Below, one piece after another: positions 145 through 7,266 of a stretch of 7,266 bases of DNA (position 1 is the first letter of the stretch; each line of letters starts with the position of its first letter). Source of the DNA: Candidatus Tectimicrobiota bacterium (GTDB taxonomy: Bacteria > JACPSX01); contig JACPSX010000174.1 of the NCBI GenBank assembly GCA_016193065.1, positions 1 through 7,266 of the forward strand, given 5' to 3'. The translations under genes and the position numbers were made by a program. The notes beneath the pieces were generated by a model, which was given only the letters and a program-made list of their open reading frames with translations, had not been told where the DNA came from and ran no database searches.

Positions 145-294
145 CTATCGGATCCCGGCCAGCTTGCCGCGAAACGAGGGCCATGCTGCGATTCCCCCTC
201 CTGCAGCGACAATGAGGACCAGCAGCCCCCACACCATTTTTCGCAGAGGCAAAGACACTTTGGGAGGAGGTCCCTTCACCGCTGCCGTTCCCAT
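145..294 (-). CDS. Small single-pass membrane protein (49 aa), unrecognised
   Basis: A 49-residue frame starts at ATG 294 and ends in TAG at 145. A GGAGGG ribosome-binding sequence lies 5 nt before the start, inside the codons for the last Asp box of the propeller gene. The start lies upstream of the propeller stop (276-278), so the two genes overlap by 19 bp in different frames, which suggests translational coupling. The N-terminus is Lys/Pro-rich (residues 7-19). Residues about 20-41 form one hydrophobic helix (MVWGLLVLIVAAGG at its core), followed by a short basic tail containing R42, K44 and R49. I do not recognise a family. It could anchor or accompany the exported propeller at the membrane. 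The good ribosome-binding site and tight overlap are the main reasons to call it a gene; length alone would not support it. Confidence 0.55.
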   Translation of the reverse strand: MGTAAVKGPPPKVSLPLRKMVWGLLVLIVAAGGGIAAWPSFRGKLAGIR

Positions 295-1175
295 GTTGTC
301 CCTCCATCGGTGCTCCGGAAAATGACCCCGCTGGCGGTCGAAGCGTAAACCCCGCTGGGCTGCTTCGGGTTCACCGCTACTGCGGCCAGATTTTTGAGTC
401 CTTTCCCCACAGGCTTCCATTTCTCACCGGCATCTACGTTTTTAAAGAGCCCATCCCGCATCGCGGCGTACATGACCTTAGGATCTGCCGGGTTCACCGC
501 AAAGCCGTTCACCGTCCGGTTGGCAGGCAGACCGCCCACCGCTTTCCACCCTCAGAAGCAATCCGGGTTGCGTTGGAGACCCTCGGCGGTACCCGCATAG
601 AGGTAGATCCCGCCCATCCCCGTCGGGATGTTGACCGAGGTGAGGACCTTGATCTCTCCTTCTGGACCGTCATCCACGCGGGTCCACTTGCCGCCGCTCT
701 CTGTGGTCCGGTAGATTCCAGCCCCTTTCTCCCGGACCGCCGCGTGCAGTTTCATGGGGGCATTGGGATCCAGTGCGAGGCCGTGGACATCAAGCCCCCC
801 GAGGCCGGAGTTTATCTCGGCCCAGATTGCTCCACCGTCTCGGCTCCTCAGGACGCCTGCTTCATGGGTCCCTACGTAGATAGTCCGCGGATCCTTTGGA
901 TCCACGGCGATGGTCATCACATCCAGGTTGGCGTGTTTCATGGACACCGGGACCCGCTGCCAGGTTTTCCCCCGATTCTCGCTTCTAAAGAGGCCGGTGT
1001 GTGCTCCCAGAAAGAGAGTTTTCCCCTCTGAATCCATGACCAGGGCATGGACATGCTGGAACATGTCGCCCACCTTCTTGGAAGACCCAGCGCCCGCCGC
1101 TGAGACGGGCAGGGTTCCTGAGAGGAGAACCGCGAAGACCAAGAATGCTGGAAAGGCCCATAGGTGCTTGTGCAT
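276..1175 (-). CDS. Exported six-bladed Asp-box propeller, candidate selenoprotein (UGA at codon 208)
   Basis: The frame starts at ATG 1175, with AGGAG 9 nt upstream, and runs 299 codons to TGA at 276-278 if the in-frame TGA at 552-554 is read through. Residues 1-27 are a signal peptide (hydrophobic core, then VSAA). Six repeats follow, each ending in a 12-residue G-x-x-R/K-[ST/N]-x-D/N/E-x-x-x-x-W turn: W72, W118, W164, W210, W253 and W295. This is the Asp-box pattern of YCF48/BNR/sortilin-like propellers, which are binding scaffolds or glycosidase-like proteins. In blade 4 the turn reads RNPDCF-UGA-GW, in perfect register with RSTDGGTTW of blade 6, so the UGA codon occupies a normal blade position two residues after Cys206. 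A SECIS-like hairpin follows (522-540). The alternative is a nonsense mutation, perhaps of a Cys TGC/TGT codon, giving a pseudogene. The intact 91 downstream codons, the kept repeat register and the hairpin favour selenocysteine. No substrate can be assigned. Confidence 0.72.
522..540 (-). promoter_or_regulatory. Bacterial SECIS-like hairpin downstream of UGA
   Basis: Counting the U of UGA as nucleotide 1, nucleotides 15-21 (GGUGGGC) pair with 27-33 (GCCUGCC) as seven consecutive pairs, two of them G-U wobbles. They close a five-base loop GGUCU at nucleotides 22-26. In E. coli fdhF, as I recall its sequence, the SECIS loop also carries GGUCU at nucleotides 22-26 after UGA, encoding Gly-Leu at Sec+7/+8. 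Here the same two codons GGT CTG encode Gly215-Leu216 at the same offsets. SelB recognises the loop G and U bases. The hairpin is inside the coding sequence, as is usual in bacteria. Confidence 0.65.
552..554 (-). other. In-frame UGA, candidate selenocysteine codon (Sec208)
   Basis: The codon TGA is read on the minus strand between TTC (Phe207) and GGG (Gly209). The residues before it, NPDCF, and after it, GWKAVGGLPANR, form one continuous Asp-box turn and the start of the next strand. The motif would be Cys206-Phe-Sec208, a C-x-U pair. No frameshift is needed to join the two halves. Confidence 0.65.
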
Positions 1176-1242
1176 CTTGAGTTGCTCCTATTCTGGAGTA
1201 ATTGGAATGCTATCGGGTCGCTTGAAGTGGTGAGGAACCTGC

Positions 1243-1929: not shown

Positions 1930-2367
1930 ATGGCAGAGGGTGGATTCTTTATCGGCGTGGTGGCTGCACGGGCGGGAACCAACCCGAAAACAATCCGCTA
2001 CTATGAAACGATCGGGCTTTTGCCCAATCCCCGACGAGGCGAAAACCGATACCGGCTCTACTCGCAGGACGTGGTCGAGCTGCTCGCGTTCATCAAGAAG
2101 GCACAGGAGTTCGGTTTTACGCTGTCCGAGATCAAGGAAATCGTTGCCCTCCGACGAATGGGCCGCGAGCCCTGCGTCCACGTGCGGGCTCTGCTGGAAC
2201 GGAAGATCAGCGATCTCGAGCAGATGCTTGACGATCTGGTCACATTGAAGGAGAACTTGAAACGCCTGTTGGCCCGTTCCCAAAAGCGGGAGAAGCGGCG
2301 GAGGATCAAAGCGGTCATCTGTCCTCATATCGAAGGCATTTCCCCGGAGCCAAAGCGGCAAGGTTGA
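1930..2367 (+). CDS. MerR-family metal-responsive regulator (145 aa)
   Basis: The start ATG 1930 follows AGGAG at 7 nt. Residues 8-44 are the classic MerR DNA-binding winged helix (IGVVAARAG then TIRYYETIGLL and NRYRLY). Residues 47-76 complete the second helix-turn-helix with FGFTLSEIKEI. Residues 86-118 form the long dimerisation helix. Cys82, in REPCVHV, lies where MerR and ZntR place their first metal ligand at the start of that helix. A second cysteine, Cys131 in ICPHIEG with His133, fits the C-terminal metal loop. Hg-type MerR proteins have two C-terminal ligand cysteines and this has one, so Zn, Cd, Pb or Co sensing is as likely as Hg. Length is normal for the family. Its likely target is the dyad at 1633-1654. 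It ends 6 bp from the stop of the convergent gene. Confidence 0.93.
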   Translation: MAEGGFFIGVVAARAGTNPKTIRYYETIGLLPNPRRGENRYRLYSQDVVELLAFIKKAQEFGFTLSEIKEIVALRRMGREPCVHVRALLERKISDLEQMLDDLVTLKENLKRLLARSQKREKRRRIKAVICPHIEGISPEPKRQG

Positions 2368-2849: not shown

Positions 2850-2943
2850 GGATTCTGAATTTGGTATGCGCTTTGCTTAGTAGCAGATCTGGTTGGTTTT
2901 TTGGGCAGCCCGTTTAACCGTTGAGGATGGAGGAAGGAAACGA

Positions 2944-4053
2944 ATGAGACAGAAACGTTGGCTTATGGGCTTTCTTACTTTGGCTTTGGTTTTGGCATGG
3001 AGCCTGGACTCCTGGGCACAGCCCCGCGGCGGCCAGCGGGGGGAGAAGAGTCCGGGTCAGGGAATGATGGGCCCGGGAGGAGGCATGATGGGGCAGGGCG
3101 GAATGGGAGGGATGATGGGCTCTCCCGGCGGCGAGATGATGGGCCCGGAGGGTGCCGGGAGGACATTGGGTCCGGAATCTCCCTGGATCTCGATCATCCT
3201 CAGGTTCCGCAATGAGTTGCAACTGACCAAAGAGCAGGTTTCTTCCCTGGAAAAACTCCGCTTTGAGTTTGAGCGCCAGGCGACCAAGCTGCAGGCCGAT
3301 CTCCGTCTTGCGGAGTTAGATCTAAACCAGCTTCTTTCTCAAGAGACTGTGAGTCTCCCTCAGGCCAAGACCAAAATTGAGGAAGAGGCGAGGATCAGCG
3401 CGGAGCTGCGCTACCGGCGATTGGAAGCCATCACCCAGGGTCGCAGCGCACTCACTGCGGAACAGAGAGACAAGTTACAGTCTCTGGTGAGCCGGAGCCC
3501 GCAAGCTCCGGGAGGGCGCAGCCCGCAAGGAGCGCCGCCCAGCAAAGGAATGCCCCGGAAGGGGTCTGGTGGAATGATGGGTCCCGGAGGCGGGGGGATG
3601 ATGGGCCCGGGAAGCATGCTGGGCCCCGGGAATGATGCGATCTCCAGCGCAGGGGAGATTCGGAAAGTTGCGGCTACATCGACCTCTTTGGCACAGGTAG
3701 ATCAGCGAGATTCCGTAACCGTGGAGGTGACCCCGGTCACTCCACCGGTCCAGGGGAAGATCAAGTTCAAGGTGGTCCTGGATACCCACTCGGTGTCCCT
3801 GGATGACTACAAGCTGGAGACGCTTGCGACCTTGCGGTCTGGTGGCGGCGAGGCGGTCAAAGCCCTGGCCTTGGAATCAGGGGAGGGGAGTGGGCATCAT
3901 CGCTCGGGCGTCCTGGTCTTCCCCGACAAGGATTCCAAGGGCAAATCTCTACTGAATTCGGCCAACAAGAGTCTAGAGCTTCTGATCAAGAACGTGGGCG
4001 GGAATTCCACTCGAATCTTCCGCTGGAACTTGCCTCTTCCAAAATCCTCCTGA
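2944..4053 (+). CDS. Met-rich exported Spy/CpxP-like protein with C-terminal extra domain (369 aa)
   Basis: ATG 2944 is chosen because a GGAGGAAGGAA purine tract precedes it and it begins a clear signal peptide (residues 1-25, cleavage likely after SWA). An upstream in-frame extension lacks these. Residues 39-69 are a Gly/Met tract with repeated GMMG units. Residues 86-182 are helical with two LTxxQ-type motifs (LTKEQ at 94-98 and LTAEQ at 170-174), the hallmark of Spy/CpxP/CnrX-type periplasmic proteins that bind unfolded proteins or sense metals. A second Met-rich tract covers 203-229. Residues 258-364 form a beta-rich domain with DTHS (280-283), GHHRSGVL (317-324) and FRWNLP (359-364). I know this domain from unannotated exported proteins but it has no agreed name. 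The Met tracts and histidines suggest Cu or similar metal binding in the periplasm. Paired LTxxQ motifs are normal; the fusion and doubled Met tracts are less usual. Confidence 0.85.
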   Translation: MRQKRWLMGFLTLALVLAWSLDSWAQPRGGQRGEKSPGQGMMGPGGGMMGQGGMGGMMGSPGGEMMGPEGAGRTLGPESPWISIILRFRNELQLTKEQVSSLEKLRFEFERQATKLQADLRLAELDLNQLLSQETVSLPQAKTKIEEEARISAELRYRRLEAITQGRSALTAEQRDKLQSLVSRSPQAPGGRSPQGAPPSKGMPRKGSGGMMGPGGGGMMGPGSMLGPGNDAISSAGEIRKVAATSTSLAQVDQRDSVTVEVTPVTPPVQGKIKFKVVLDTHSVSLDDYKLETLATLRSGGGEAVKALALESGEGSGHHRSGVLVFPDKDSKGKSLLNSANKSLELLIKNVGGNSTRIFRWNLPLPKSS

Positions 4054-4320: not shown

Positions 4321-4506
4321 ATGTGGGAATTCCTGAAAGATAACGGACTGTGGATTGCGCTTGTGGGCGTGTTCGTCGTGATGCACCTCTTTGGCGCAGG
4401 GTGCTGCGGGGGGCATCGGAAGCGCTCGGAGACGGAGGGCAAAGAGGATCCTCCGGGGACTAAAGAGGGAGCGCCCCAGGTAGGCAAAACGGGAAGCTGC
4501 CACTAG
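4321..4506 (+). CDS. Small single-pass membrane protein with CCGGH motif (61 aa)
   Basis: ATG 4321 follows AAGGAGGT at 5 nt, a near-perfect ribosome-binding site. Residues 9-26 form one membrane helix (start WEFLKDNG, core LWIALVGVFVVMHLFGAG). Cys28-Cys29-Gly-Gly-His32 follows directly at the membrane face. The tail is charged and Pro/Gly-rich and ends in Gly-Ser-Cys-His. The layout recalls DUF2933-type small proteins (a membrane helix with MHLF followed by a Gly/His/Cys cluster), which are often found near heavy-metal genes; the match is by appearance. A metal-handling accessory role is inferred. The TAG stop directly abuts the MITE-like repeat. Confidence 0.75.
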   Translation: MWEFLKDNGLWIALVGVFVVMHLFGAGCCGGHRKRSETEGKEDPPGTKEGAPQVGKTGSCH

Positions 4507-4644
4507 CAGGCCACTGAAAAACCGGGTACCCGTCCTGGGTGTGCGTTGTTGGCTGCGTTGCTCGTCGTTGCGGCGTACCTAACCACGTACGCCTCACTCC
4601 TCGCTCCTTGCCGCCTAGCATCCGGGACGTTTTTGAGCAGCCTG
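4507..4644. mobile_element. MITE-like short inverted-terminal-repeat element (138 bp)
   Basis: The left end is CAGGCCACTGAAAAAC (4507-4522). The right end, reverse-complemented, is CAGGCTGCTCAAAAAC (from 4644-4629), 13 of 16 identical. The interior carries a palindrome GGCGTAC/GTACGCC (4572-4578 and 4587-4593). No gene is encoded. Elements ending in CAGGCTGCTGAAAAA are, from memory, widespread as dispersed copies in deltaproteobacterial-type and related genomes. It lies immediately after the TAG of the preceding gene. No clear target-site duplication is visible. Confidence 0.6.
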
Positions 4645-4696
4645 CGGTTCACAGGATTTTTTGACTTCTCATTAGATCGGGGCGCAAGCGGTTCGA

Positions 4697-5028: not shown

Positions 5029-7266
5029 GTGTTGCCCTCTGAGCACGCACAACCCTCGATCCGCTCCCAGGCTCTTCGTTTTCCCCTCTACCTCCTCTGC
5101 GTGTTCGTGATTGGCCTGAGCGTCCTGTCCTACGAGATCATTCTGACCCGATTCTTCTCAGCTCTGTTTTCCTATCATTTCGTGTTTGTCGCTGTGTCCC
5201 TGGCTGTTCTTGGTTTGGGCTTGGGAGGACTGCTCGCCGCCAGGCTCCCAAAGCCGCGGGGAGCTGCACCCCTTGTGTACGGAGTCCTGCAGGGGAGAGC
5301 CGCTTTCTTCCTGGGTCTTTCACTGGTTGTTGTACTTGTTTTGTTTGCCTATTTTCCCTGGATGCGACGTGTGTGGTTTTTGAGCCTGATCGCTCTGCCG
5401 CCATTTGGCGCAGCCGGGTATTCTCTCGCTCTGACAATGCGGTTATTCTCCAGCGAGAGTTCCCGAGTCTACTGGGCTGATCTCAGCGGCGGGGCACTGG
5501 GCACTCTCCTCGTTGTGGTTGGGCTCCAAAAGTGGGGGCCCGTGGTTACCCTCCTCCTTCTCGTTGCTCTGATCACTCTGATTTCAGGGTTGTGCTTTCT
5601 CCAGGCGCGCTCCTGGAAGTGGTTAGGTGCAGTCGCAAGCCTTTTCTTAGCCCTCCTTCCTTTGTGGGAATTGAGCACTCCTGGCGGACCAGTTGATTTG
5701 CGCCTGAACCGCAGGCAGGGATCAGGAAATCAACTGAGCCGGCTGTTTCAAAATCCCGCGCCGGGGACGACTCTGGTCTCAAGTGAATGGAACGCTTTCG
5801 CCCGCACGGACGTGGTTGAGATCTGGGAGGATGGAAGGCGGGCTCGATTCCTGTTCACGGACGGCGGCGGCGCCTCCCGGATTCCGCAATTTCCCCGTGA
5901 CTTGCTGGAGCGTTCCTGGGTTGAGGAAGATCCGGGGTTGTTCCCCTTTCTCGCTGCTGCTCCCAGGAAAGTTCTGGTGATCGGAGCGGGCGGCGGGCGG
6001 GACGTCCTTCTTTCCCTCCGGGGCGGAGCTGAAGAGATTACGGCGGTGGACGTGAACCCGGAAGCCCTAAGGGCCGTGAGACGCTACGCGGGGGATCTGG
6101 CCCGGCTCAAGAACGTACGCTGGGTTGTAGATGAAGGGAGAGGATTTTTGCAGCGCAGCAAGGAACGCTACGATCTCATCTATCTGCCCCTGGTCTACAC
6201 CGACCGCCCCGAGGCCATCAGCTACTCTCTGGTGGAAAATTACATCTTTACCCGCGAGGCGTTCCGGGAGTATCTCAACCATCTCACGGAGCGAGGACTG
6301 CTGGTCATCCGGGCCCACGATTTCAACGACTTTACCCGGGCTGCGCTGACCGCTCTGGAAGCCCTGGAGGGCCGGAGCGGAAATGATTCCAGAGCCATGC
6401 GCCACCTGATCGGCGTGCACCGCAGTGAAGGGTTCCTCCTGGACCCCCAGGCGATGAGCTACCCACTGTTGCTCGTTCGCAATACTCCCTATCAACCCCA
6501 GGAGTCCTCCCGCATCCTTAAGATTGCACTTGGGGCCGGGCTGTATCCAATTTTCATCCCGGAGCTCGTGGCCCGGTCCCCGTTTTCGGCTCTTGCCGCC
6601 GGCGGGGAAACCCCGCAGCAATTCAGCCGTCGCTTTCCTCAGAACCTCTCTCCCACTTGGGATGATCGGCCGTTCTTCTATCAAACGAATCGATTCCCGC
6701 CCCGGCCGTTGCTGCTTTTGCTGCTGTTCGTTTCCGCTGTCTTGCTGGCCTTGCTCTTTGTCTACCTGCGGCGAGGAGAAGATTTTCCCGTTCGGCGCCC
6801 TCTAAAAGCGGCGGCTCTCTATTTCTCCGCCCTGGGGGTAGGATACATGTTGATTGAAGTGGCTCTCCTGCAGCGCTTCATCCAGATCCTCGGGTTTCCC
6901 ACTCTGACGTTTTCCGTCCTCCTGTTTGTCCTTCTCCTTTCAGGAGGGGTGGGGAGCTGGTGCAGCCGCTTGATCCCCGTCGAGCGCGGCACCCGGTTTA
7001 TCTTGGTTCTGGGTTTTCTCCTTCTCGTTGCGAGTTTCCTTTTTTTCCGGACTTTGCCTTCTCTGGTTTCCTGGGCTGCCTCCCAGGAGCTCTGGGCGCG
7101 ATCTCTGGTGTCCATGGGGGTTCTTTTTCCGCTGGGCTTTGTCCTGGGGATCCCTTTCCCCCTTGGGGTCCGTCTCCTGGAGGATCGAGGTCTGGCGTCG
7201 GAGATCCCCTGGATGTGGGGGCTCAACGGGGTCGCTTCGGTGCTGGGATCGGTGGCGGCTGTGGCG
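5029..7266 (+). CDS. Membrane-embedded spermidine-synthase-like SAM-domain protein, cut by window end
   Basis: The frame is open from GTG 5029 (TTG 5032 is also possible) to the window edge, 746 codons without a stop. No ribosome-binding site is seen, but the start is 4 nt after the previous stop, fitting coupled translation. Residues about 18-210 contain six or seven membrane helices, with YEIILTRFFSALFSYHF near the start and ADLSGGALG at the loop before the later helices. Residues about 255-490 are a soluble Rossmann methyltransferase-like domain: KVLVIGAGGGRD (314-325, SAM loop), VDVNP (340-344, ribose-binding Asp341) and DEGRGFL (368-374, adenine side). A second membrane block follows from about residue 560, with GYMLIEVALLQRF, a FPTLTFSVLL segment and WMWGLNGVASVLGS at the end. 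This is the known long fusion type of SpeE-like proteins. The strand after motif III reads YDLIYLPLVYTDRP and lacks the usual catalytic D-S/T-x-D-P, so true polyamine synthesis is doubtful. Confidence 0.88.
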   Translation, partial: MLPSEHAQPSIRSQALRFPLYLLCVFVIGLSVLSYEIILTRFFSALFSYHFVFVAVSLAVLGLGLGGLLAARLPKPRGAAPLVYGVLQGRAAFFLGLSLVVVLVLFAYFPWMRRVWFLSLIALPPFGAAGYSLALTMRLFSSESSRVYWADLSGGALGTLLVVVGLQKWGPVVTLLLLVALITLISGLCFLQARSWKWLGAVASLFLALLPLWELSTPGGPVDLRLNRRQGSGNQLSRLFQNPAPGTTLVSSEWNAFARTDVVEIWEDGRRARFLFTDGGGASRIPQFPRDLLERSWVEEDPGLFPFLAAAPRKVLVIGAGGGRDVLLSLRGGAEEITAVDVNPEALRAVRRYAGDLARLKNVRWVVDEGRGFLQRSKERYDLIYLPLVYTDRPEAISYSLVENYIFTREAFREYLNHLTERGLLVIRAHDFNDFTRAALTALEALEGRSGNDSRAMRHLIGVHRSEGFLLDPQAMSYPLLLVRNTPYQPQESSRILKIALGAGLYPIFIPELVARSPFSALAAGGETPQQFSRRFPQNLSPTWDDRPFFYQTNRFPPRPLLLLLLFVSAVLLALLFVYLRRGEDFPVRRPLKAAALYFSALGVGYMLIEVALLQRFIQILGFPTLTFSVLLFVLLLSGGVGSWCSRLIPVERGTRFILVLGFLLLVASFLFFRTLPSLVSWAASQELWARSLVSMGVLFPLGFVLGIPFPLGVRLLEDRGLASEIPWMWGLNGVASVLGSVAAVA

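Follow-up and report, generated by a model that had tools for sequence, protein, structure and literature searches.

In the 7,266-nt stretch of DNA analysed here (the window), a minus-strand frame resembling a β-propeller protein is interrupted by one TGA. Does this codon end the protein, or is it read as selenocysteine (Sec)? Based on sequence comparison, we conclude that the gene at 276–1175 very probably encodes a selenoprotein in which UGA is read as Sec. The relevant features are:

276–1175, minus strand: predicted selenoprotein gene, exported Asp-box/BNR six-bladed propeller, 299 aa with Sec at 208 and terminal stop TGA at 276–278 (assigned from Pfam, homologues and AlphaFold2)
552–554, minus strand: in-frame TGA, proposed Sec208 codon
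558–560, minus strand: codon for Cys206, the proposed partner of Sec208 (C-F-U); Cys is kept here in 27 of the 28 Sec forms and in all 8 Cys forms
615–617, minus strand: codon for Met187, a possible third soft ligand, its placement taken from predicted secondary structure
522–540, minus strand: SECIS-like hairpin GGUGGGC-GGUCU-GCCUGCC, 7 bp, loop at 529–533
1095–1175, minus strand: probable Sec-type signal peptide, residues 1–27, read by eye from the translation (pLDDT <50 for residues 1–35)
1185–1189, minus strand: AGGAG, likely ribosome-binding site upstream of the ATG at 1175

A propeller with a TGA in its fourth Asp-box

Read from 1175 to 276, the frame has a single internal TGA before the terminal one. 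Pfam models for propeller repeats match the product (Sortilin-Vps10, 2.2e-14; PSII_BNR, 1.8e-08). The AlphaFold2 model, for which nine homologues served as input, is all beta (pLDDT 85.7, pTM 0.82), and its PDB neighbours in Foldseek are propellers, namely GH74 enzymes, a BNR glycosyl hydrolase and Ycf48, with E about 1e-14. The sequence contains six Asp-boxes (RSENRGKTW, RSRDGGAIW, RTTESGGKW, RNPDCFUGW, KNVDAGEKW and RSTDGGTTW), the repeated S-x-D-x-G-x-x-W hairpins by which Asp-box/BNR β-propellers are recognized, and the TGA lies within the fourth. Six blades, as proposed in the initial annotation, are supported by the predicted structure together with these six copies.

The closest NCBIfam model for the window protein, the F510_1955 family glycosylhydrolase (NF045728), gives 110.2 bits, under the curated cut-off of 175, and Ycf48 (NF010237) gives 38.7 bits, under a cut-off of 326. 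The Asp-box propeller fold is shared with Ycf48/HCF136 and BNR glycosyl hydrolases (GH74, 3b7f), at 14–21% identity in Foldseek, but a DCF(C/U)xW turn stands here in place of the ordinary Asp-box (DGGxxW). GH74 xyloglucanases are recognized by a catalytic Asp pair and tandem propellers, whereas the window protein is a single 299-aa propeller.

To what extent is the TGA conserved? The first search returned one close homologue (JAUYMQ010000225), from a Deltaproteobacteria-labelled MAG, 63% identical and with TGA in the same place. Scanning species genomes brought in a Rokubacteria MAG, again with TGA, and seven Rhizobiales/Pleurocapsales loci with Cys. We then searched 95 genomes of the phylum containing the Rokubacteria MAG and recovered 26 close loci, spread over 24 genomes; every one has TGA at the Sec column and none has Cys. 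Together with the window and the first homologue, these loci make a set of 28 sequences from 26 genomes, and TGA occupies one column in all 28. This agrees with the initial annotation, which had noted coherent sequence on both sides of a lone TGA; the sequence 3′ of the codon stays in frame and is conserved.

Sec forms extend down to 39% identity with the window protein (39–51% at the low end). In all homologues with 38–45% identity (Rhizobiales and one cyanobacterium), Cys falls exactly at the TGA column, giving PDCFCGW versus PDCF-U-GW. More distant copies from Tritonibacter and Burkholderia likewise have Cys at residue 208. Thus, both an in-frame UGA with conserved flanks and a Sec/Cys pair, two hallmarks of selenoproteins, are found at this locus. 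Across 36 aligned members, Asp205, Cys206, residue 208, Trp210 and Met187 are invariant, with only the Cys/Sec exchange at 208 and a single Sec206 as exceptions. This Sec206 occurs in locus L119 (G078:C235:1513-2361), where the Cys206 position is also TGA (MD-U-F-U-GW), an apparent double-selenocysteine U-x-U form; in L121, closely related to it, the motif is C-F-U. In a tree with some long-branched rows, Sec and Cys forms group strongly by type (2 changes, versus 9.8 in shuffles), and one or several origins of Sec both fit.

A constrained hairpin and the selenocysteine machinery

Bacterial SECIS (bSECIS) elements are modelled with a loop of 3–9 nt, an upper stem of 4–16 bp, G within the first two loop positions, a distance of 16–37 nt from UGA and an MFE of at most –7.5 (PMC13188914). 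The window hairpin fits these constraints, with a 5-nt GGUCU loop, a 7-bp stem and 18 nt between UGA and loop, and the 57-nt stretch that holds it has an MFE of –16.6 kcal/mol. One caveat is that its folding energy as a lone sequence is no better than that of shuffled GC-rich sequence (z = +0.6). The single-sequence fold is no proof; the above-chance signal is conservation. An Rfam search of the whole window gave no match.

That signal is strong. Codons +5, +7, +8, +9 and +10 past the UGA (alignment columns) are GTG in 28, GGC in 28, GGT in 26, CTG in 28 and CCC in 27 of the 28 sequences. For these five V-G-G-L-P codons, 137 of 140 are identical, compared to a codon identity of 0.32–0.40 expected from usage, and they rank top of 109 five-column windows across the gene. 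Outside the hairpin, codon identity is near the 0.3–0.4 expected from usage, in genes that have otherwise diverged. The consensus in Sec forms is GGUGGGC-GGUCU-GCCYRCC, with a GGUCU loop in 26/28 and GGGCU in the other two. The outermost stem pair is lost in 9/28 and the inner ones are kept in all. Stem substitutions are almost all one-sided, the sole two-sided change being U-A to C-G in L108, which has one additional codon before the stem; there the hairpin is kept but shifted, as seen after realigning the one-codon insertion. In the Rhizobiales and Pleurocapsales Cys homologues, neither the GGUCU loop nor the stem is present at the hairpin site.

The initial annotation placed the start of the hairpin at the same distance from UGA as the fdhF SECIS loop. 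In both the window gene and E. coli fdhF (read from NC_000913), GGUCU occupies nucleotides 22–26 counted from the U of UGA. A GGU at 15–17 is also common to the two. The window hairpin differs from that of fdhF in its 7-bp stem, its 5-nt loop and the pairing of U17, bulged in the fdhF SECIS, with A or G.

Is the host equipped to insert Sec? The window's genome (G000), a MAG 86% complete and in 294 contigs, encodes a SelB of full length (372 bits against a cut-off of 242) along with two SelD genes on separate contigs, L131 (C120) and L056 (8412-9380, C175), each with an internal TGA. The C175 SelD lies on the SelB contig, with its TGA at the catalytic site (CAG-U-AGK). Host SelB and SelD, both expected for a selenoprotein, are therefore found. 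Among the sel genes listed for checking in the initial annotation, selB and selD are accounted for; searches of this MAG for selA and tRNA-Sec gave neither. RF01852 matches above cut-off in G000 were other tRNAs by ARAGORN, and an anticodon-arm pattern search of the genome for tRNA-Sec gave chance-like matches only.

On its contig SelB starts as early as base 254, and relatives have the gene order selC-selA-selB, so the absence of selA and tRNA-Sec is best read as an effect of the contig edge. In the other two Sec-form MAGs checked first, selA was also not found and SelB fell below cut-off. In the phylum to which 24 of the Sec-form genomes belong, 83 of the 95 genomes have a SelB match above cut-off and 83 a SelA match; of 18 selB regions read, 15 have a tRNA-Sec (anticodon tca) close by. 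Given these 83 genomes with SelA, its absence from the first three Sec genomes is probably explained by incompleteness.

These data bear on two other interpretations of the TGA. It could be a nonsense mutation, the mark of a pseudogene, or an assembly error, such that translation would yield a 207-aa truncated propeller or no protein at all. Standard gene calling treats TGA as a stop, and the terminal stop of this gene is formed by TGA as well. However, the same TGA in 28 homologues, the aligned Cys in others, the in-frame conservation downstream and the frozen hairpin codons make this explanation very improbable; sequencing error, a concern raised in the initial annotation, and pseudogene status are ruled out by conservation of the TGA in 26 genomes. 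Alternatively, UGA could be read as another amino acid (e.g. Trp) or passed by general stop-codon read-through. Frame continuity alone would be compatible with such decoding, but we regard it as scarcely credible: the homologous residue is Cys and never Trp, and TGA terminates neighbouring genes, arguing against Trp recoding and general read-through. Nor does it suit a genome with SelB and a UGA-containing SelD, or a SECIS-like hairpin with the fdhF loop. Selenocysteine at codon 208, first put forward as a candidate, is instead supported by the conserved UGA, the Cys homologues, the constrained hairpin codons and the presence of SelB and SelD.

Copper and thiol-redox genes around the family

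The genes next to Sec-form propellers suggest a setting for the family. Two neighbours in the window recur at other loci:

1930–2367, plus strand: predicted MerR-type metal-responsive regulator, co-occurring with the propeller; its cluster is found in eight loci, the window included
2941–4053, plus strand: predicted exported Met-rich LTXXQ-like protein (PF07813 below cut-off); its cluster is found in six loci, the window included

The 2941–4053 product is rich in Met and Gly, with MMGPGGG repeats and a weak LTXXQ match, and is a possible Cu(I)-binding partner. Elsewhere in the window, 4321–4506 encodes a 61-aa single-span protein with a Cys/His tail (GAGCCGGH...GSCH), which is similar to the small membrane proteins seen at copper loci but matches no Pfam model. 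A DUF123 protein is encoded at 2374–2832 on the minus strand, and 5029–7266, which runs off the contig, encodes a polytopic membrane protein with a spermidine-synthase-like methyltransferase domain. The intergenic regions 1–118 and about 4507–4660 have the look of dispersed repeats, with an inverted CTCTCCC...GGGAGA element and a GCTGCGTTGCTCGTCGTTGCGGCGTACC element. A search of phage records gave no match.

Among 27 Sec-form loci, multicopper oxidase is present in ∼15, TlpA/redoxin in 16 and DsbD_2/CcdA in 15; none of TlpA, CcdA and multicopper oxidase is on the window's own 7.3-kb contig. Proteins of the PCYCGC family (PF13798) repeatedly adjoin the Sec propeller (L144 4489-5025, with the same cluster in L142, L145, L149 and L154). 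As a CYCXC-family selenoprotein under PF13798 has been catalogued (PMC13188914), these neighbours may have Sec forms too.

Cys forms lie in plasmid operons with DsbE, TlpA, SCO, DUF1573, DsbA, CcdA and DUF411, alongside mercury or copper genes, among them those for CueR, copper ATPases and multicopper oxidases. The copper/mercury-operon propellers of Rhizobiales, Tritonibacter and Burkholderia share the DCFC turn, Met187 and operon partners with the Sec family, and differ in having Cys for Sec. They are annotated as 'hypothetical', 'sialidase family' or 'YCF48-related'. Two propeller genes per copper/mercury plasmid operon are seen in Jiella (L079) and Sinorhizobium M14 (L080); the second Jiella copy keeps DCFC, and in the alignment an ordinary Asp-box of the second M14 copy falls at this place. 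By sequence, the DCF(C/U)xW motif defines a wider predicted family of propellers whose genes lie in copper and thiol-redox operons, and copper together with thiol-redox chemistry is probably the setting of the propeller family.

A possible soft-metal or redox site

Because Cys206, residue 208 and Met187 are conserved and the neighbours are copper and thiol-redox genes, we propose a C-x-U soft-metal or redox site in the periplasm. Cys206 and Sec208 are the sole thiol and selenol in the window protein. In the predicted structure, a single blade carries Met187 in its a-b loop and C206/U208 in its c-d turn, suggesting that they share a face. In the proposed mechanism, SelB and Sec-tRNA would decode the UGA at codon 208, guided by the hairpin 11–29 nt past it, and the chain would end at the terminal UGA. 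The exported product would be a periplasmic six-bladed Asp-box propeller, in which the blade 4 turn, normally S-x-D-G-G-x-x-W, is changed to N-P-D-C-F-U-G-W. The reduced C-x-U pair, possibly with Met187, would form a soft-metal or redox site for periplasmic Cu(I) or Hg(II), and neighbouring TlpA-like thioredoxins and a DsbD/CcdA membrane electron carrier may hold the pair reduced. We have high confidence in the overall reading of a periplasmic selenoprotein with hairpin-guided recoding and a C-x-U soft-metal or redox site.

The chemistry of that site is less certain. The selenoprotein may be a redox catalyst: its C-x-U pair would form a selenenylsulfide, be recycled through TlpA/CcdA, and repair or reduce the thiols of periplasmic proteins such as SCO or the factors that assemble cytochrome oxidase. 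The TlpA, DsbE, DsbA, SCO and CcdA neighbours are in line with this, Cys206/Sec208 is the protein's one redox-active pair, and selenoproteins are mostly thought to be redox proteins (PMC13188914). We give redox catalysis an appreciable chance, somewhat under even, since the same loci carry multicopper oxidases, MerR/CueR regulators and copper ATPases, and an invariant Met187 apparently on the same face suits a soft-metal site. From the neighbourhood and the motif, metal ligation rather than pure selenenylsulfide exchange has a little less than an even chance. A more specific version, in which the Asp-box turn has been remodelled into a TlpA-CcdA-reduced Cys-x-Sec site (with Met) for Cu(I)/Hg(II), U-F-U in L119, is offered tentatively.

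The spacing itself has precedent. Bacterial C-x-U selenoproteins (thioredoxin-like Sec.1, ferredoxin-thioredoxin reductase and UshA-like; PMC13188914) also have Sec two residues past a conserved Cys, Cys homologues and a downstream bSECIS. These belong to thioredoxin-fold, FTR or UshA families, in contrast to the propeller described here.

Has this family been described before? The 2026 work of Deng et al. is said to predict unlisted candidate selenoproteins in groundwater MAGs, reportedly 63 in one Methylomirabilota MAG. Our literature search, whose reach excluded that study and Haft and Tolstoy 2025, found no earlier report of a propeller selenoprotein, and the June 2026 NCBIfam release holds no selenoprotein model for the window protein. 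The initial annotation knew of no selenoprotein of this type, and a 2026 catalogue of 119 prokaryotic selenoprotein families likewise has no propeller among them (PMC13188914). Thus, 276–1175 very probably represents a family of bacterial selenoproteins, absent from the catalogue, that has a propeller fold, although an earlier mention is possible.

If so, a propeller fold would join the prokaryotic selenoproteome, where characterized families are mostly thioredoxin-like. Standard gene calling would cut Sec-form proteins off at residue 207. The DCF(C/U)xW motif would unite 'sialidase', 'YCF48-related' and hypothetical genes of copper/mercury operons, and the family would tie selenocysteine to the way in which widespread, uncultured soil and groundwater bacteria handle copper and thiols in the periplasm.
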